Below, one piece after another: positions 1 to 8,224 of a stretch of DNA of 40,465 nt. Below the pieces are notes generated by a model that saw nothing but the letters and a program-made list of their open reading frames with translations, was not told where the DNA came from and searched no databases. The stretch is from Hyphomicrobiales bacterium (GTDB lineage Bacteria; Pseudomonadota; Alphaproteobacteria; Rhizobiales; Beijerinckiaceae). Every line of letters begins with the position of its first letter. The first letter of the stretch is position 1. Made by a program: the position numbers and the translations under genes. The DNA is taken from contig CANGSG010000002.1 in assembly GCA_947456435.1 (NCBI GenBank), positions 1-40,465 of the forward strand, given 5' to 3'.

Positions 1-1920
1 GAAGGCTTCCATTAATTTGCGTGCAAGGCCTGGTTCGATGGCATTACCCAAAGCACCATTTTGCTTGGCGTTTTGAATCATCAATTGCTCAAGACCTGTA
101 TCAAGAGTGACAATCGGCAATTCTTCCTTCGGTGATGAGATTCGTTGGATAAGAATTGGACCAAGAGCGATACGAGCGGCCTCGATGAGATCATCCGTTT
201 CGCGACCTTTGGCGCTTGAAACCGCTTCGAGGATTCGCTTCATATCGGCGATCGGAATCTGCTCTGCAGCAAGCGATTTAAGCACTTGTGTCAATTGCGG
301 CAGCGATACGAGTTTCGGCACAACGCCCTGCACAAGATTTGGTGCCGATTTAGCGATATGATCGATAATGTCCTGCACATCGTCTTGACCGAGGAGATCG
401 GCGCCACGTTGCATCAAGAGCTGGTGGAGATGTGTTGCAATTACAGTACCTGCGTCGACCACCGTATAATCGGCAGCAAGCGCGCGTGGCTTATCCGAAG
501 GATCAATCCATACGGCATCAAGACCGAAGGTCGGATCTTTTACCTTCTGACCGGGAAGAACCGCATTCGAATTTGTGCCCTGAATAGCGAGAAGCTTGCC
601 ATTGATCACTTGATCTTCAGCGGCAATCACGCCGGCAATTGTGATACGATAGGCCGAGGGCATCAATGACAGATTGTCGCGAATTCTCACCTGCGGAATA
701 ATAAATCCGAGATCACGCGAAACTTGTTTGCGGATGCCGGTGATACGTGACACGAGCGCGCCACGCTTTGCATCTTCGATGAGAGGAATAAGGCCGTAAC
801 CGACTTCAATGAGCAGCGGTGTTGTGTTGGCCACATCATTGATCGTGACTTCGTTTCTCTCTTCATCATCAGCGCTGCTCTCAAGGCTGATGGTTGGCTT
901 TGCCGCTTCAAGCGCGAGTACTTCTGCTTCTTTCTTGTCACGCTTGTTGGCGAAGTGAGCAATCGCAGCTGCCCCTGCGGCGGCTGTCAGGAAGAGCAGA
1001 TTAGGCATGCCAGGCAAAATGCCGATAAGGGTGAGAATGCCGGCGACAGGATACCAAGCGCGGCGCGCACCGATTTGGCGGGTCAGGGTTTTTGAAAGAT
1101 CAGATTCACCTGATTCACGTGTCACGATCACGGCGGTAGCGATCGACAACAGAAGTGAAGGGATTTGAGCGACAAGACCATCGCCGATGGTCAAAGTCAC
1201 ATAAGTTGAAGCGGCTTCGCTTGCAGGTAATCCATGCTGCACCATGCCGATGATCAAGCCGCCGACAATGTTGACGACCAAAATCAGGACACCGGCGATT
1301 GCATCGCCTTTCACAAATTTCGTGGCACCGTCCATCGAGCCGTAAAAATCGGATTCGCGTGCAACTTCTTCGCGACGTTTACGAGCGACATCCGGGGTGA
1401 TGATGCCAGCATTTAAATCGGCATCGATGGCCATTTGTTTGCCGGGCATAGCGTCAAGAGTGAAGCGCGCCGCGACTTCTGAAACGCGGCCAGTGCCCTT
1501 CACGATCACGACGAGGTTGATCACCATCAAGATAATGAAGACGAGAATACCGACGACGAAATTCCCGCCGATGACAAATTCACCAAAGGATTCAATGACA
1601 TGGCCTGCCGCGGCGGTGCCTTCATGACCGTGCACGAGTACGACGCGGGCCGAGGCGACGTTGAGCGCCAAGCGCAAGATCGTGGCAAACAGAAGAATGG
1701 TCGGGAAGGCCGAGAAATCGAGCGGCCGGTACATGTTCACGCTAACCATCAGGATCGAAAGCGAGATCACAATGTTCACTGTGAAGAAGATATCGAGCAG
1801 GAATGGCGGGATCGGCACAACCATCATGACGATGAATGCGACAAGCGCGACAGGCAGCATAAGGGATTGCGCCCAGCGCCCTATATCCCCCTGTTGGTTT
1901 ATCGACAGTGCGTCGCTCAC
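1..1920 (-). CDS. flhA: Flagellar export gate protein FlhA (3' end outside window)
   Basis: FlhA is the large inner-membrane subunit of the flagellar type III export gate; its cytoplasmic domain forms the nonameric ring that receives chaperone-substrate complexes. The frame stays open for 640 codons from a GTG at 1920 to the window edge; the family usually has about 690-700 residues, so roughly 50-60 C-terminal residues are missing because of the window, not a mutation. Visible are eight or so hydrophobic segments in the first ~310 residues and the FHIPEP-family signature (DAMPGKQMAIDADLNAG, about residues 156-172), followed by a cytoplasmic domain. The GTG start is supported by an AAGGCGGG-type ribosome site just upstream. 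It is transcribed away from the flgP-flgT-flgA group, with its own sigma54 promoter at 2019-2035. Confidence 0.96.
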   Translation of the reverse strand, partial: MSDALSINQQGDIGRWAQSLMLPVALVAFIVMMVVPIPPFLLDIFFTVNIVISLSILMVSVNMYRPLDFSAFPTILLFATILRLALNVASARVVLVHGHEGTAAAGHVIESFGEFVIGGNFVVGILVFIILMVINLVVIVKGTGRVSEVAARFTLDAMPGKQMAIDADLNAGIITPDVARKRREEVARESDFYGSMDGATKFVKGDAIAGVLILVVNIVGGLIIGMVQHGLPASEAASTYVTLTIGDGLVAQIPSLLLSIATAVIVTRESGESDLSKTLTRQIGARRAWYPVAGILTLIGILPGMPNLLFLTAAAGAAAIAHFANKRDKKEAEVLALEAAKPTISLESSADDEERNEVTINDVANTTPLLIEVGYGLIPLIEDAKRGALVSRITGIRKQVSRDLGFIIPQVRIRDNLSLMPSAYRITIAGVIAAEDQVINGKLLAIQGTNSNAVLPGQKVKDPTFGLDAVWIDPSDKPRALAADYTVVDAGTVIATHLHQLLMQRGADLLGQDDVQDIIDHIAKSAPNLVQGVVPKLVSLPQLTQVLKSLAAEQIPIADMKRILEAVSSAKGRETDDLIEAARIALGPILIQRISSPKEELPIVTLDTGLEQLMIQNAKQNGALGNAIEPGLARKLMEAF

Positions 1921-2018
1921 TTAATTACCCGCCTTGTGTCGGAATCCCGACGAAATCATTCATTTTGACCGTCTCGCCCCCGTTTCCGGTGGGTTTGGCG
2001 GCGGTTCGCATAGGTAAA

Positions 2019-2035
2019 AGCAAGGGGTATGCCAG
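2019..2035 (-). promoter_or_regulatory. Sigma54 (-24/-12) promoter for flhA
   Basis: Read on the minus strand the site is CTGGCATACCCCTTGCT, matching the sigma54 consensus TGGCAC-N5-TTGCW with exact GG-N10-GC spacing. Transcription would start near 2008 and give a leader of about 88 nt before the flhA GTG. It lies back to back with the plus-strand sigma54 site at 2063-2079. Confidence 0.75.
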
Positions 2036-2062
2036 CGCAGAAATTTTGTTGGTGGAACCCTT

Positions 2063-2079
2063 TCGGCACGGAATTTGCT
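2063..2079 (+). promoter_or_regulatory. Sigma54 (-24/-12) promoter for flgP-flgT-flgA
   Basis: The sequence TCGGCACGGAATTTGCT has GG-N10-GC spacing and a full TTGC -12 element; only the T of TGGCAC is replaced by C. The expected start near 2090 leaves about 68 nt before the flgP-like ATG at 2158. Confidence 0.72.
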
Positions 2080-2157
2080 GAAGGGGTTCTGACCCATTTC
2101 CCTGTGCGCGGGTTTCGCAGTCTGCGTGACCCCCGAGTGTGCAAAGGACATACCGCC

Positions 2158-2637
2158 ATGAAGTTCAACCATCTTGCGCTCTTTGCCGCCCTCGCGTTGT
2201 CCGGGGCTCTGCTATCCGGCTGCGCCACCGCAACCGACAAAACCAAACTGGCCTCCGCCACGCCGGCTGCAACAACCACCGCAGCGGCGGCGCCTGTTGA
2301 TACGGGTGCCATCCGCGGCATCGGTTACGCTGCGATTTCCATTCAGCCGGGCCGGACGCGGGTGCAGAAGCAATTGATGGCGATCCGGGCTTCGCGTCTC
2401 ATGGCGATGCGTGAACTCGCCGAAAAGATTTACGGCCTTGATGTGAACTCCTACGCCTCGCTTTCAGAAGGTGTGATGCAGGCCGATACATTGCGCGGCA
2501 CGGTTGCCGGGATCGTGCGCAGCGCACGGACTGTGTCGATCGGCCCGATCAAGAGCGATATCTACGAAACGATCCTTGAAATTGATGCGTCAGATGCGGC
2601 CGCCATGACCGCACAAGGCGCGCCGAAATATCACTAA
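2158..2637 (+). CDS. flgP: FlgP-like LPP20-family flagellar lipoprotein
   Basis: Predicted outer-membrane lipoprotein of 159 residues. It opens with a lipoprotein signal peptide whose lipobox LSGC places the lipidated cysteine at residue 22, followed by an Ala/Thr-rich linker. The body (about residues 50-155) carries the LPP20-type core with the RASRLMAMRELAEKIYG stretch typical of these proteins. In Vibrio, FlgP with FlgT builds basal-body disks around the LP ring; the direct neighbour here is flgT, which supports the same role. The open frame extends upstream to 2029, but that would delete the signal peptide, so the ATG at 2158 (after AAAGGA) is chosen. It is the first gene of a five-gene plus-strand unit. 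Confidence 0.82.
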   Translation: MKFNHLALFAALALSGALLSGCATATDKTKLASATPAATTTAAAAPVDTGAIRGIGYAAISIQPGRTRVQKQLMAIRASRLMAMRELAEKIYGLDVNSYASLSEGVMQADTLRGTVAGIVRSARTVSIGPIKSDIYETILEIDASDAAAMTAQGAPKYH

Positions 2638-2644
2638 GAGAGTC

Positions 2645-3748
2645 ATGATGCGTTCTGTCTGGTTCATTCTCGCAGCGGCGGTTGCCGCCCTCTTTTGCGC
2701 TCACGATGCTCAAGCGGGCACAAAACTTGTGCATGCTGTGGGTCGGGCTGCGATAGCGAATGGCGATATCGCTGCGGCGCGTAAATCCGCTCTAGCGGAA
2801 GCGCTCTATGATGCCGCGGGACAAGTACGCATGTCGGTGCGAGGATCGACGCTTGTATCCGATGCGGGAACGCTTCGCGAGGAAAGTGGGATCGTCGTAT
2901 CGGGTCAGCTCAAAGGGTATCAGGTTCTCGATGAGCACCGCGAGGGTGATCATTTTGTTGTTACGATTGATGCGTTGGCTGACTCCGAAGAAGGCGAATG
3001 CGCGTCGTCAAAGAAATCTGATATTGCTATTGGGGCGATTGATGTTCGCGTCGCGCCGGGCTTGACGGGCAAAGTTGAGCGTCAAGGTCGTGAAGGTGTT
3101 GAGCGTCTTTTTGCAGTGCTCAATGAAGAGCCGGCCCTGCGCGCCATTGATGATCGTCGATTTAACCCCGTAACGCGCTCATCGACCGGCGTGAAACAAA
3201 ATCTTGCTTATCTCGCAGTCGTTGAAAACTATCGTCCAACACCGGGTGTGTTGCGGCTTGATGGTGTGGTGAAACTTGAGCGGGCGCGCATGGGTAATGA
3301 TTTTGTCGCCGAGACCGCTATTGAAGTCACAGCCGATTTAGAAATCATTGACACAATGACCGGAGCCGTGCGCGAACGAATTGTTGAAAGCGCGATGGTT
3401 CCGCTCGAATCTCATCTTTGGGGCACGGATATTCCCTTGCCGTCCAACGTGGCGGGAAGTTTCGATGATCTTTGGCATCAGGTCGCTTCCCGTGTAGCTG
3501 ATCATGTCGGATGCGATACTGTGCGCGCCGTTGTTACTTCGGTTTCGGGAAATAAGGCAACACTCTCGGCCGGTGCATCGAATGGTGTGAAGCCGGGCGA
3601 CTATTTTCTTGTCGAACTTCCCTCAGAAACAAAGAATTCGTGGCAGATTATTCGTGTTGAATCAGCGGGCGCCCATCAATCCGTTGCGCGTCTGATGAAG
3701 CCGAAGCCCGCAATTCATGCAAATTCCGTCGCGGTGTTATTGCAATGA
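2645..3748 (+). CDS. flgT: Flagellar assembly protein FlgT (H-ring component)
   Basis: A 367-residue periplasmic protein with a cleavable signal peptide (hydrophobic run then AQA before Gly25). The N-terminal part (about 25-115) has the FlgT-N pattern, with an AAARKSALAEALYDAAGQV helix followed by a beta-rich half; a middle Rossmann-like FlgT-M region follows, and the last ~80 residues form a small beta domain with NGVKPGDYFLV typical of FlgT-C. In Vibrio FlgT makes the H ring and helps recruit stator units; distant homologues occur in some alphaproteobacteria. It begins 7 nt after flgP and its stop overlaps the flgA start (ATGA), so the three genes are translationally linked. Confidence 0.85.
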   Translation: MMRSVWFILAAAVAALFCAHDAQAGTKLVHAVGRAAIANGDIAAARKSALAEALYDAAGQVRMSVRGSTLVSDAGTLREESGIVVSGQLKGYQVLDEHREGDHFVVTIDALADSEEGECASSKKSDIAIGAIDVRVAPGLTGKVERQGREGVERLFAVLNEEPALRAIDDRRFNPVTRSSTGVKQNLAYLAVVENYRPTPGVLRLDGVVKLERARMGNDFVAETAIEVTADLEIIDTMTGAVRERIVESAMVPLESHLWGTDIPLPSNVAGSFDDLWHQVASRVADHVGCDTVRAVVTSVSGNKATLSAGASNGVKPGDYFLVELPSETKNSWQIIRVESAGAHQSVARLMKPKPAIHANSVAVLLQ

Positions 3749-4485
3749 GTGGCTTGTTAATCAGATCCGTTTTTGGTGTTGCGCTCGCGGGTCTTTTCGC
3801 GTTGCCCGCTCATGCGGATGACGCGGTGTGGGGTGCTGATGAAATCCGGGCTGCTGTGCAAGATTATTTCGCGGCGAGTGGACGTGCGCTTCCGCCCGAT
3901 GCACGCATTGGACCGCTGGATGATCGATTGCAAGTTGCGGCCTGCGCTACATCACCGCTTGTTCAACCGCGCAGTGCCTATAGCTCTAGTCTAGTTGTTA
4001 CTTGCGCCGCGCCGACACCGTGGAATTTTACGGTTCGTGTCGAGGGCCTCGAGACTCCTCCCGCGGTTACAGTTCCGCGTATGATCAGCGCGGGCGGTCC
4101 GATTAAACAATGGAATGTTGTTGTGCCGCGCGTGGCATTAGCCGCAGGCACGATTCTTACAAGCGATATGCTTGAGGAGCGCGTCACGAACCAACCGCCA
4201 GGCGGGGCTTTGATGAAAGGCGTCGCCGAAGCGGTCGGGTTACGTCTCGTTTCGGCGCTGCAACCCGGCAATGTGTTAACCACACGCAATGTAGCCCGCG
4301 CGCCCACCGTGATGAAGGGTGAAACCATTACCTTGATCGCTGAAGGTGAAGGCTTTTCTATTTCCGCGACAGCGCGGGCTGAGGAAGATGGCTTTGAGGG
4401 CGATCTCGTATCGGTCCGAAATGTAAAAAGCGGTGTGTTGTTATCAGGTCGGGTGGCACAAAGCGGCACCGTGATCATTCGCTGA
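3745..4485 (+). CDS. flgA: P-ring assembly chaperone FlgA
   Basis: FlgA is the periplasmic chaperone for assembly of the FlgI P ring. The 246-residue product has a signal peptide ending in AHA at about residue 24, an N-terminal domain with a Cys pair (AACATS and VVTCAAP), and a C-terminal SAF domain starting near residue 125 (WNVVVPRVALAAGTILTSDMLE) with the ChapFlgA features G-x-L.TRNVARAP and a final beta strand GTVIIR. Length is normal for the family. The start codon overlaps the flgT stop by four bases. Confidence 0.93.
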   Translation: MSGLLIRSVFGVALAGLFALPAHADDAVWGADEIRAAVQDYFAASGRALPPDARIGPLDDRLQVAACATSPLVQPRSAYSSSLVVTCAAPTPWNFTVRVEGLETPPAVTVPRMISAGGPIKQWNVVVPRVALAAGTILTSDMLEERVTNQPPGGALMKGVAEAVGLRLVSALQPGNVLTTRNVARAPTVMKGETITLIAEGEGFSISATARAEEDGFEGDLVSVRNVKSGVLLSGRVAQSGTVIIR

Positions 4486-4500
4486 AATGGAATTTAGACT

Positions 4501-4815
4501 GTGGAAAATATGACCGAAACGGGCTTTCTCGACGCGGTAGGGCGTACAGCGGAGATTCTCGCGGCGATCGAACGTTCGATCATGGGCGAAAATCGCCAAG
4601 CCATTGAGAGCTTGACGCTTGATCTTCATGCGGAGTTGTCGGGCTTTGTTGGTCGTGTTCCCGGATCTCCCGAAGATCGCGCCGCCGTCTCGCGCATACA
4701 TGAAACCACGCTCAAACTTGAGAAATTGCTTGCCGACCGCATGGCTTCAAAGGATAGTGGCCCTGTAAGGCGGAAGCCGAAACATCGTCCGGGGCTTGTT
4801 ACCTATCAATCCTGA
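4501..4815 (+). CDS. Small helical protein after flgA, possibly FlgN-like
   Basis: A 104-residue, cysteine-free protein predicted to be mostly alpha-helical (two long amphipathic stretches, about 8-50 and 60-82) with a basic tail (RRKPKHRPG). I do not recognise it firmly. It follows flgA by 15 bp in the place where many flagellar clusters keep flgM and flgN, and its helical character and size would suit a chaperone of the FlgN/FliT kind; this is inference from position. The start is GTG at 4501; an in-frame ATG at 4510 is an alternative. Confidence 0.6.
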   Translation: MENMTETGFLDAVGRTAEILAAIERSIMGENRQAIESLTLDLHAELSGFVGRVPGSPEDRAAVSRIHETTLKLEKLLADRMASKDSGPVRRKPKHRPGLVTYQS

Positions 4816-5297: not shown

Positions 5298-5966
5298 TTA
5301 GCGCTTTTTACCTTTATCGCGATCAAGACGCAAAATGGCACCCGTTGTCATTTCGAGTTTTGCGGCATCATCGGTACTTGCCAAGGCAATGCGGGCGCGC
5401 GGAAGAAAACCGTCTTTTACCGCCGTATCGCGTAAAAACATCGGCCCGCCCATCGCCAGCGTGACGATACTTCCAATATAGACGACGACAAAGGCCAGTG
5501 TGCTGGTGGCAAAGCCCAAACCATACATAAAGATTGTTGCCGCCATCATCTGCCACAATCGGAAATAGCCATAGGCAATTACGGGAAAAGGTAACCAGGC
5601 CACCGAGATACGCTCCGGCAGTAACAGTAACGAATCTTCCTGACGGATCGCCGAATAAAAAGGCGTCCATGCTTCCTCCACATCAACGCTCACTTCTTCC
5701 ATGAGGGGATAAGGTTCGAGCGTGATGCCGACCGCGCCGCCCGGTGTCGCGATCTTGAAAACAATCTTGTCACGCAACACGGTAAGCCAATCTTTCTCGG
5801 CTCCGATTTCCTCAAGAACGCTCGGCATTTCGAGAGCTTCAAGCGGCTCACGCTTTCCTATTTTCAATAATACATCGCCCGGCAACAAACCGAGTTTTTC
5901 GCCCGGTGAAAGCTTTTCAACGCCGGTGACACGGACCGCCGTGCCGGAAAATGTATTCGTGCCCAT
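5298..5966 (-). CDS. PDZ-like domain membrane protein downstream of flhB
   Basis: A 222-residue protein. Residues ~8-85 look like a PDZ fold, with the carboxylate-loop-like KLGLLPGDVLLKIG at 24-37 and TPGGAVGITLEP at 74-85. Two or three hydrophobic segments follow between about 123 and 178, then a short charged C-terminal tail (DRDKGKKR). There is no signal peptide, so the PDZ part is probably cytoplasmic, which is unusual since PDZ domains in bacteria mostly work in the periplasm. I know no named family. It is 29 bp downstream of the coiled-coil gene and appears to be the last gene of the fliK-flhB transcription unit. Confidence 0.72.
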   Translation of the reverse strand: MGTNTFSGTAVRVTGVEKLSPGEKLGLLPGDVLLKIGKREPLEALEMPSVLEEIGAEKDWLTVLRDKIVFKIATPGGAVGITLEPYPLMEEVSVDVEEAWTPFYSAIRQEDSLLLLPERISVAWLPFPVIAYGYFRLWQMMAATIFMYGLGFATSTLAFVVVYIGSIVTLAMGGPMFLRDTAVKDGFLPRARIALASTDDAAKLEMTTGAILRLDRDKGKKR

Positions 5967-5995
5967 GACTGACCGGCTCTAACCGAGATCCATTC

Positions 5996-6874
5996 TTACG
6001 GATATTTGATCATAATGTCAGGCTGAGGTGCACTTTTGCGGTTTCGAGCGGCCTTTTGGGCCTCGATTGCTGCCGTACGCATCGCCTCAACTTGTTGTTT
6101 TTTGACAATCTCTTCGATTTGCTTAGCGAGATCGATTTTTGGATTCGACGCTTCCATCGCTTTGATTTGTTCCTTCATCGCATCAGAGACCTGCGAGACA
6201 ACGAGCTTATTGGAGGCAACCAAATCTTCGATAATCTTGCGTGTTGCCGCAGGTAGACTTGCCATTGCCTCAGAGTTTTCTGCGATTTTACCTTGAATTG
6301 CTTGTTGATTAACAAGATCGCCTTGCATCAAGGCTTTGATCTCTTCCTGCTGCGCCATCAAGGCGGCGAGGCGCTTTTCAGATTCGGTCGCAGCCTTTTC
6401 AACGCGCGTTGCCGCTGTGGTGAAGGCATTAACTTCTTCCGCAAAAGCCATCAACGCATCGCGGTTTACATTTGTCATCGAGTCAAAACGATTCATGGCC
6501 TTGAAATAGAAGGCCACTGAGATGCCCAGCGCGATAGATGCCATGAAAAGAAACAAAACGCCGGTGGAGATAAGGAGCTTGTTCGAGCGCGAAGCGCCTG
6601 CAACGAGTTCACTGACCTGCTTTTTGATCTTTGCAACATCGCTGCTCGCATCGGCTGTGGTTTCCGCTGTGGCGAGGGCAAGCTGAATTGCTTCTTCGAT
6701 CGACGGGGCCTTGGGTTTGCCAGCGTCTTTGCCGCCTTTCGACTTCTCCTTGGAGGTTTCGCCGGCGTCCGCCGCGGCCTCTTCCGTCGCGTGGCCATCG
6801 GCTACCTGCTGTTCGGCGGGCGCTTCTGTCTTGGCTTCGGCCTTGGGAGCGGCTTTCTCGGGTTTCTTACTCAT
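5996..6874 (-). CDS. Membrane-anchored coiled-coil protein of the flagellar operon
   Basis: A 292-residue protein with three clear parts: an Ala/Lys/Glu-rich, probably disordered N-terminal region (1-95), one membrane segment (about 100-124) and a long helical region (about 130-275) rich in Ala, Glu, Gln and Lys that looks like a coiled coil. The positive N-terminal part suggests the N terminus is cytoplasmic and the coiled coil periplasmic. No enzyme motif is visible. The start codon overlaps the stop of the Cys4 mini-protein (ATGA), so it is translationally coupled to the flagellar operon. Function unknown; a stator- or ring-associated structural role is speculation. Confidence 0.75.
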   Translation of the reverse strand: MSKKPEKAAPKAEAKTEAPAEQQVADGHATEEAAADAGETSKEKSKGGKDAGKPKAPSIEEAIQLALATAETTADASSDVAKIKKQVSELVAGASRSNKLLISTGVLFLFMASIALGISVAFYFKAMNRFDSMTNVNRDALMAFAEEVNAFTTAATRVEKAATESEKRLAALMAQQEEIKALMQGDLVNQQAIQGKIAENSEAMASLPAATRKIIEDLVASNKLVVSQVSDAMKEQIKAMEASNPKIDLAKQIEEIVKKQQVEAMRTAAIEAQKAARNRKSAPQPDIMIKYP

Positions 6875-7071
6875 AATCGGACATCCTCAAGCGAAAATTC
6901 TTTGACCGGCTGATCTGTGCGCATGCGACAGCGTTCTCCCGAATTGACTAGCACATCTCGTGCCGGATGCTGGCGAGACCGCATACCAAATGCACGGCAG
7001 CCATAAGGCCAGGCAGGTTGGTGAGTCACAAAGAAATGGGAACATCCGTGGCAAGAACCGGCTGTGTTCAT
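6871..7071 (-). CDS. Cys4 mini-protein, probable zinc-binding, downstream of flhB
   Basis: A 66-residue protein with four cysteines at 7, 10, 25 and 48 (C-x2-C-x14-C-x22-C), and a W-PYGCRAFG core followed by an SGERC segment. Short proteins of this pattern recur in alphaproteobacteria and other phyla and are often mislabelled in databases as uracil-DNA glycosylase; they have no glycosylase domain. The Cys arrangement suggests a structural zinc site. I prefer the ATG at 7071, ten bases past the flhB stop; the frame is open to an ATG at 7116 and a GTG at 7092, which would overlap flhB. Its stop overlaps the next start (ATGA). Confidence 0.72.
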   Translation of the reverse strand: MNTAGSCHGCSHFFVTHQPAWPYGCRAFGMRSRQHPARDVLVNSGERCRMRTDQPVKEFSLEDVRL

Positions 7072-7081
7072 GGGCTCAACA

Positions 7082-8224
7082 TCACGAGACACGGCGGCGC
7101 TCCATAGCTCGTCCATTCATGTCGAATTGGAGCTCCTTCGGAACTTCAATATCGGGCTTGTCGCCCTCTGCACCGGCGTGGAAGACAAAGCTCAAGACCG
7201 TTGCAACGGCTTGATAGAGTTCAGAATGAATCTCGCCACCGATTTCGGATGTGAAATAAATGGCACGCGCAAGCATCGGATATTCCAAGACCGGCATCTT
7301 TTTTTCTCCGGCCTTTTCGCGGATCATTTTGGCAATCGCATCAGACCCTTTCACGACGACTTTCGGAGCGGTGCCTTTAACGAAATCATAGCGGAGACCT
7401 ACCGCAAAATGTTGCGGGTTGGTGATAATGACTTGCGCCTGATTGATATTGGCAACCGATCCACGCTCAGCCGCTTCACGTTGCATTTTGCGGATACGGC
7501 CTTTGATTTCAGGAGATCCCTCCGTCTCCTTCATTTCATCCCGGACTTCTTGCTTTGTCATTTTCAGATTTTGATTATAGCGGTACCACTGGTAGATCGC
7601 ATCAGCACCGGCGATAATCAGAGTCGTGAAAACAAGAACGAGCAAGGTTGAAGCAAATAGGCTTCCGGCATCTGCAAGAGCGGCCTCGAACGGAAGTCGT
7701 CCCAAGGCCATCACTTCCGGCAATCGATGAAAAATATAGAGTGTACCGACGATTCCGATAACAACTGTCTTGCTTATTGATTTAAATAACTCGATCAGCC
7801 CAGAAAACCCAAACATGCGCGATAGACCGCGCAGCGGTGACAATTTATCGAATTTAAATCCGATATTGCCTGTAATGAAGTGAAAGCCGCCAAAAGCAAT
7901 TTGCGCCGCAATCAATAGGGCAACAAGCGGAACAAAAAAGATCATCATGGGCAATGCAATTTCACCCATACGGACAGCAAACATTTCGGGAAGCGGCATG
8001 TCCCGTTGAAGCGCGTCAGAAAAATCTAGACCATTACGAAATGCGCCCAGAAATTCTGTGAAGTAATAATGCCCACCAATTGAGAATTGCAAGGCACCGC
8101 CCAAAAGCACAGCGGCAAGAAGCAATTCTTTCGATGTCAGAATTTGGCCATCTTCAAGCGAACGCTCGAGTTTTCGGCCAGTAGGGTCTTCTGTTTTTTC
8201 TTGTCCCTCGTCGGTCTCGGCCAT
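7082..8224 (-). CDS. flhB: Flagellar export switch protein FlhB with NPQH motif
   Basis: FlhB is the inner-membrane export protein whose cytoplasmic domain cleaves itself between Asn and Pro of the NPTH motif and switches the export apparatus from rod/hook to filament substrates. The 380-residue product has the usual charged N terminus (EDPTGRKLE), four membrane segments between about 33 and 210, the linker helix with MTKQEVRDEMKETEGSPEIK, and a cytoplasmic domain. The cleavage motif reads N269-P270-Q271-H272, so Thr is replaced by Gln while Asn, Pro and His are kept. Its start overlaps the fliR stop (TGATG). Confidence 0.96.
   Translation of the reverse strand: MAETDEGQEKTEDPTGRKLERSLEDGQILTSKELLLAAVLLGGALQFSIGGHYYFTEFLGAFRNGLDFSDALQRDMPLPEMFAVRMGEIALPMMIFFVPLVALLIAAQIAFGGFHFITGNIGFKFDKLSPLRGLSRMFGFSGLIELFKSISKTVVIGIVGTLYIFHRLPEVMALGRLPFEAALADAGSLFASTLLVLVFTTLIIAGADAIYQWYRYNQNLKMTKQEVRDEMKETEGSPEIKGRIRKMQREAAERGSVANINQAQVIITNPQHFAVGLRYDFVKGTAPKVVVKGSDAIAKMIREKAGEKKMPVLEYPMLARAIYFTSEIGGEIHSELYQAVATVLSFVFHAGAEGDKPDIEVPKELQFDMNGRAMERRRVS

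Follow-up and report, generated by a model that had tools for sequence, protein, structure and literature searches.

Flagella of the FlgP/FlgT type have been described in Alphaproteobacteria from Cereibacter (Rhodobacter) sphaeroides, whose motor protein MotF is termed lineage-specific there (available parts of PMC10954123 and PMC7277832): Cereibacter-specific in the former and restricted to some Rhodobacteraceae in the latter. According to the accessible text of PMC7277832, the Fla1 flagellum of C. sphaeroides, a species without MotX/MotY, is a FlgP/FlgT system that was gained by lateral transfer and carries rpoN2 in its locus; MotF (24 kDa) has a transmembrane (TM) segment at residues 54–74 and a large periplasmic C terminus, interacts with FlgT, needs FlgT for its recruitment, and acts together with FliL on the MotB plug, and the MotF mutants are paralysed and are suppressed in motB (plug). 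The accessible text of PMC12363192 names the clusters fla1 to fla3 and gives proteins CP1–4 as fla1-only. In a table of PMC9779115, C. sphaeroides flhB is RSP_0066, and RSP_0067 is a hypothetical gene among co-regulated motility genes. The MotF of S. meliloti and A. fabrum, termed a FliL paralogue in a reference title, is apparently a different use of the name and was set aside.

The window analyzed here is a 40,465-nucleotide stretch (contig CANGSG010000002.1) from a Hyphomicrobiales bacterium of the family Beijerinckiaceae (the host family below). ORF reading of its minus strand gave fliP–fliQ–fliR–flhB followed by the genes of a Cys4 mini-protein, a 292-aa one-pass membrane protein (designated CC), and a 222-aa PDZ/membrane protein (together, the module), and thus all three ORFs of the original prediction were recovered (Table 1). 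The facing strand, at 1600–4815, carried p1600, a FlgP-like lipoprotein gene, flgT, flgA, ORF4501, and the gene of a DUF2802-type protein; ORF4501 (104 aa, 4501–4815) and p1600 had no family match. None of the three module proteins reached a curated family cut-off, and the PDZ protein displayed a sub-threshold PDZ_6 match.

Table 1. Positions of the module, its inner components, and the facing partner genes in the window
Feature	Position	Strand	Basis
flhB of the module-bearing (FlgP/FlgT-type) flagellar system	7082..8224	-	Pfam Bac_export_2 9.2e-106; FlhB tree
Cys4 mini-protein gene, 73 aa, probable GTG start at 7092	6871..7092	-	Start comparison; Cys 14, 17, 32, and 55 invariant
CC, one-pass membrane protein, 292 aa, MotF-like candidate; start within ATGA overlap with the mini-protein gene	5996..6874	-	
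Predicted TM segment of CC, residues 100–120	6515..6577	-	Hydropathy
Conserved C-terminal tail of CC, I-K-Y-P-COOH	5999..6010	-	Tail [IVL]x[YF]P in 50/51 complete proteins
PDZ membrane protein, 222 aa	5298..5966	-	
PDZ fold, residues 10–87, with GxVG loop at its C-terminal end	5706..5939	-	AF2, VIA, Foldseek
Membrane hairpin of the PDZ protein, residues 138–184; DUF2628-like in 6/21 family members	5415..5555	-	
FlgP-like lipoprotein gene, partner system	2029..2637	+	LPP20 match below Pfam cut-off
flgT (H-ring protein), co-occurring with the module	2645..3748	+	Pfam FlgT_N 5e-9, above cut-off

The 10-bp junction originally placed between flhB and the mini-protein gene is probably wrong: by comparison of start sites, GTG 7092, preceded by a GGAG, is the probable start of the mini-protein and gives an 11-nt overlap with the end of flhB. 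This GTG plus GGAG was common to three same-genus relatives (L022, L024, and L030), which had no ATG at the position of ATG 7071, and the ATG 7071 start was not conserved. The ATGA overlap of Cys4 and CC (6871–6874) and the 29-bp gap between CC and PDZ were present as predicted. The Cys4 start lay 4–11 nt inside flhB in 15/15 host-family loci (starts picked by the analyst on these same grounds) and about 197–226 nt after flhB in the other-family loci; the proposed translational tie to flhB held in the host family but not elsewhere, and it is a host-family trait because of this gap of about 200 nt. The Cys4 stop and the CC start overlapped by 4 nt in all 15 host-family loci and in L020 (ATGA; GTGA in L023), and an overlap of 4 or 1 nt was found in 17/30 loci of the order of genome G310 (the G310 order).

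The order flhB–Cys4–CC–PDZ was found in 52 distinct alphaproteobacterial loci, all of them in flagellar clusters and one (L071) on a contig that stopped inside CC: (i) 15 host-family loci; (ii) AG-911-L17 (L020); (iii) eight loci in four other families; (iv) loci of the G310 order (30 read, three of them repeating earlier loci); and (v) a plasmid of Octadecabacter arcticus. The three genes are real, and their order is conserved beyond chance. CC loci were found in seven families of Alphaproteobacteria and, in addition, in O. arcticus. The counts left out L016, L018, and L019 (repeats of G011, G003, and G001), L017 (a short fragment), and eight Cys4 matches (E 1.8e-4 to 0.01) that were short or contained stops; all CC searches were applied to Alphaproteobacteria, and in the 385-genome class sample the module was scored by Cys4.

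Within the host family, a single-sequence CC search gave a match in 15/100 genomes (window genome counted), and fliP–Q–R–flhB–Cys4–CC–PDZ was kept in 14/14 relatives; 13 of these had flgT, flgA, and the DUF2802 gene facing the module, while the contig of L027 stopped at PDZ. The Cys4 profile matched 17/149 host-family genomes from the same five genera as CC. G007 had FlhB and no CC match; its contig, probably L017 (4,800 bases), ended 59 bases after the Cys4 match. In the class sample, 10/385 alphaproteobacterial genomes (window genome counted) had a Cys4 match at E <= 1.3e-8, CC was found in 10/10 of them, and eight from four other families displayed the same gene order (that of L071 up to the contig end). 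In the G310 order, CC was found in 69/91 genomes and 17/19 sampled genera; the best 30 of 70 CC matches were read, giving the four-gene order in 30/30, and of the four families with CC matches one (f274) lay outside these best 30. On the O. arcticus plasmid pOA238_118, the run flhB–Cys4–CC–PDZ continued into a small gene and rpoN, and genes for LPP20 and FlgT lay close by. In its record the Cys4 gene (L159, 15968–16165) is without annotation, and the CC start is annotated 84 nt too far downstream, as judged from relatives. Plasmid searches of PLSDB with 240 residues of the window CC gave no match, and those with O. arcticus PDZ, O. arcticus CC, and L074 PDZ gave only the O. arcticus plasmid itself plus noise.

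The expectation of a flagellar module was borne out by this neighbourhood survey: CC lay outside flagellar clusters in 0/52 alphaproteobacterial loci, and the module (scored by Cys4) was present in 17/115 flhB-bearing and 0/34 flhB-less host-family genomes. Flagellar specificity did not extend to the Cys4 family as such. The wider Cys4 family occurred in 83/398 genomes of the phylum sample, and among 18 loci read outside Alphaproteobacteria, some on short contigs, 17 had no flagellar neighbour in sight and all 18 were without CC or PDZ. The remaining locus (L108, 6020–6385, from another class) had a Cys4 relative between genes read as flagellin-like and genes of the flbD, fliF, and fliG types. 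The four cysteines were invariant in 37 sequences; the first three are partly so by choice in the 18 non-alphaproteobacterial rows, because the script demanded a C-x2-C...C motif, which all 18 had. The AF2 model of the mini-protein (pLDDT 81.6) had no convincing match in the PDB (best Foldseek E 4.7 and one VIA row at Z 2.2), although Foldseek may have overlooked a related fold, and six Cys4 relatives had no NCBIfam match. One Cys4 relative was annotated as uracil-DNA glycosylase. A Ramlibacter match to the mini-protein (L021) was rejected because it was read as a chance frame lying antisense to unrelated genes.

In CC, a conserved pre-membrane helix (ESIxLALxAA...D) led into the single TM segment; a second conserved stretch followed the membrane, and a variable region separated it from the C-terminal tail. 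The TM segment lay within residues 51–78 in 12/23 members (238–270 aa) without an N-terminal extension and within residues 81–129 in 11/23 members with such an extension, including the window CC, whose TM segment at 100–120 followed a charged extension of about 45 residues; in O. arcticus CC (270 aa, start chosen by the analyst), it lay at 58–78. CC is predicted to have a cytoplasmic N terminus and a periplasmic C-terminal tail, with K/R bias placing the N terminus inside in only 18/23 members. The basic N terminus and the long coiled coil of the original prediction were not supported for the window CC: residues 1–58 held 11 K/R and 11 D/E and were not basic overall, and heptad periodicity gave p = 0.38 in a crude test that fell below 0.05 in 9/23 sequences.

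The tail [IVL]x[YF]P-COOH was present in 50/51 complete CC sequences (exception: L077). Mean pairwise identity over the last five residues was 0.55 for CC (22 tails) versus 0.19 for FlhB and 0.18 for PDZ, and tails comparable to that of CC were found in FliL (0.61), ORF4501 (0.60), the DUF2802 protein (0.52), FliN (0.47), and FlgT (0.46). The ORF4501 value came from eight loci, all of one genus. The conserved CC tail is likely to act as a docking peptide. Its pairing as a ligand with the neighbouring PDZ domain was set aside, because the predicted topology puts the two on opposite sides of the membrane.

Residues 10–87 of the 222-aa protein form a PDZ fold, an assignment well supported by the AF2 model (pLDDT 91.3). 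VIA gave (i) Z 8.7 to 9cg1 (2.5 Å over 75), (ii) Z 8.0–8.7 with rmsd 2.4–3.0 over 72–77 residues to RseP-type PDZs, Nas2, and a DUF512 protein, and (iii) Z 7.7 to GRASP65 (4rey). Foldseek gave no match at E <= 0.001 (best E 6.3e-3), with PDZ or PDZ-like structures in the top rows. The call also leans on PDZ_6 matches, since a Z of 7–8 can arise by chance (a VIA warning): PDZ_6 matched at E <= 0.1 in 17/21 family members, the window protein lying under the curated cut-off (23.4 bits versus 27). A GxhG loop closed the fold, with G80 kept in at least 90% of the 21 members; a loop of this type at the C-terminal edge of a PDZ domain presumably resembles the GRASP motif. After the PDZ domain came a membrane hairpin with 2–6 K/R in the next 25 residues, and DUF2628 (PF10947) matched weakly in 6/21 members (best E 8e-4) and not in the window protein. 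The PDZ domain is predicted to face the cytoplasm, in agreement with the cytoplasmic PDZ on a membrane anchor originally proposed. RseP, HtrA, and GRASP PDZs share the fold, but the window protein had no protease domain, carried a fused DUF2628-like hairpin, and is cytoplasmic by prediction.

In the window, the FlgT_N match lay above its cut-off and the FlgP-like match below the LPP20 cut-off, marking a FlgP/FlgT-type flagellum; the FlgP-like gene preceded flgT, and O. arcticus likewise has its annotated LPP20 gene ahead of FlgT. Of the 385 genomes in the alphaproteobacterial class sample, the module was present in ten, FlgT in ten, and both in nine (Fisher p = 2e-16). FlgT_N passed its cut-off in 10/385 class genomes, nine of them among the ten module genomes, and the tenth module genome was the window's own, whose FlgT was missed by the genome scan and found by direct scan; the scan was imperfect, in that G000 and G006 carry FlgT yet were missed. 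By family, FlgT was found in 5/5 module families of the class sample. In the host-family sample, FlgT_N at E <= 0.001 was found in 13/17 module genomes versus 1/132 others (p = 2e-14). Both p-values are too small because the genomes are related. FlgT occurred without the module in two genomes, one in each sample (G207 and G526); FlhB was absent from both assemblies, which suggests that contigs are missing. Two FlgT_N matches at E 0.006 and four below the cut-off were dropped before counting, and CC was not found in the four genomes with the sub-cut-off matches.

In host-family loci, the module and flgT lay within about 5 kb of each other. In the nine class genomes, they lay 26–92 kb apart on the same contig in six and on different contigs in three, and the link is not mere adjacency because of these distances outside the host family. 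A FlgP-like gene adjoined flgT in 6/6 FlgT loci from other families; five of the six also gave a match to FlgA, and two gave one to DUF2802.

The claim that no module protein has a named flagellar role is open to doubt, since CC resembles MotF in its place, its size, and its predicted topology. Compared by description rather than by sequence, CC and MotF appear to share (i) a place in the region next after flhB (if RSP_0067 is motF), in a sigma-54-controlled cluster of the FlgP/FlgT type, (ii) one TM segment, predicted near residues 54–74 in the CC members without the N-terminal extension, (iii) a size of about 24 kDa with a large C-terminal part predicted outside the membrane, and (iv) a tie to FlgT, which for CC is genome co-occurrence (9/10 and 9/10 in 385 genomes) and for MotF dependence in recruitment. 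RSP_0067, next to RSP_0066, is presumably motF. Unlike MotF as described, CC is spread over several families and is extended by charged residues at the N terminus in the window, and the accessible text on MotF describes no Cys4 or PDZ partner. On the agreement in position, size, predicted topology, and FlgT link, CC is probably a distant MotF-type protein.

Our main reading, to which we assign a probability of roughly 0.58, is that the module is an accessory set of an H-ring-bearing (FlgP/FlgT-type) alphaproteobacterial flagellum, with CC as its MotF-type protein acting in stator activation. CC would begin with a short helix in the cytoplasm, cross the membrane once as a helix, and extend a long arm through the periplasm towards the H-ring and the stator; FlgT would recruit it, and together with FliL it would help to unplug MotB so that the motor turns, with the C-terminal tail serving as the putative docking peptide. 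The PDZ/hairpin protein would sit on the inner membrane face and the Cys4 protein in the cytoplasm, and the two may be assembly or clamp partners of CC, as suggested by gene order and predicted topology.

The position of the module directly behind flhB in 52 loci, with overlap of Cys4 in the host family, also fits an export-gate factor aiding the folding, insertion, or switching of FlhB. The PDZ domain would then bind FlhB, either at its tail or at the cleaved C domain, whose compartment the PDZ domain is predicted to face. Two PF01312 matches were found in 11/17 host-family module genomes, and two flagellar systems are present in the host genome. In G001, the second system had flgB–flgC–fliE–fliQ–fliR–flhB, a large membrane protein gene, and recA, with no module (ORF reading), and the visible parts of the second-type FlhB loci in G000, G004, and G023 agreed with it. 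On G000 contig C176 (802–4052, L152), a second-system FlhB fragment lay ahead of a large membrane protein and then a RecA-like ORF. G004, of the same genus, had one FlhB, of the module-less kind, and CC was not found in it. In a 40-row FlhB tree, 28 module FlhBs formed one lineage, split by a 96/92 branch from 12 module-less host-family FlhBs; this allows but does not prove a single origin of the module FlhBs, because the tree has no outgroup and includes long rows (L145 and L077). Identity to the window FlhB was 28–35% for module-less alphaproteobacterial FlhBs, 31–41% for other-family module FlhBs, and 39% for that of the gammaproteobacterium Aeromonas caviae, in which an ORF read as flhA came after flhB. 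An export-gate role is unlikely given that Cys4 was not found in 98/115 flhB-bearing host-family genomes, that no module stood at those second FlhB loci of module genomes that were read, and that Cys4 lay well past flhB outside the host family; FlhB tails were moreover unconserved in module loci (0.19 versus 0.55 for CC) and were rejected as PDZ ligand on this ground, and such a role leaves the co-occurrence with a periplasmic ring protein unexplained.

The strong FlgT link also fits a CC that belongs to the H-ring/basal disc (FlgP/FlgT) itself, as a structural scaffold or a factor in its assembly, or that stands in for the E-ring, affecting motor building and not stator opening, and loss of FlgP blocks hook formation in C. 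sphaeroides (accessible text of PMC7277832). FlgY/MotE/FlbB E-ring proteins are, as is predicted for CC, helical, membrane-linked periplasmic motor accessories, but they are described in the available part of PMC13023049 with an MgtE_N (ARM-like) domain and often by fliJ/fliK, and the window CC has neither. The window CC had no MgtE_N (PF03448) match up to E 1, and E-ring identity was rejected on this absence; the family matches for CC relatives cover 25 of the 31 families listed. If CC is MotF, the paralysed, motB-suppressed phenotype of MotF mutants also speaks against a purely structural role, and we regard this explanation as quite improbable. The scaffold originally proposed is a fair reading as a motor-associated one; a scaffold for polar placement, despite the membrane-anchored PDZ being a common scaffold design, is very improbable with an association found instead with FlgP/FlgT.

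The reading of the module as a MotF-type accessory set of the H-ring motor may be extended tentatively: CC, PDZ, and Cys4 could possibly build a substructure, so far unrecognised, of the H-ring motors of Alphaproteobacteria. It would tether the membrane to the H-ring, gate the stators via the C-terminal IxYP docking peptide, and replace the gammaproteobacterial MotX/MotY T-ring; it would be near-universal in the G310 order, with the 'Cereibacter-specific' MotF as one worn-down outlier. The T-ring (MotX/MotY) and H-ring (FlgO/P/T) of Vibrio are, as is proposed for the module, accessory parts of FlgT-type motors, but in the one gammaproteobacterial cluster read (A. caviae, 45 kb, one genome) no Cys4, CC, or PDZ match was found at E below 0.1.

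No paper on the three-gene module was found in the literature searched, which covered few subscription papers. Accessory motor modules are a known kind of system; this one has a probable MotF as its core component, and no description of its two partners was found. A three-gene module with one gene in the place of motF was present in several families and in all 30 G310-order loci read (best 30 of 70). If the MotF link is true, this orphan motor protein would be placed in a family, with two unknown partners and a conserved tail, and the recruitment and opening of stators by an H-ring would become testable in a genetically tractable laboratory species.
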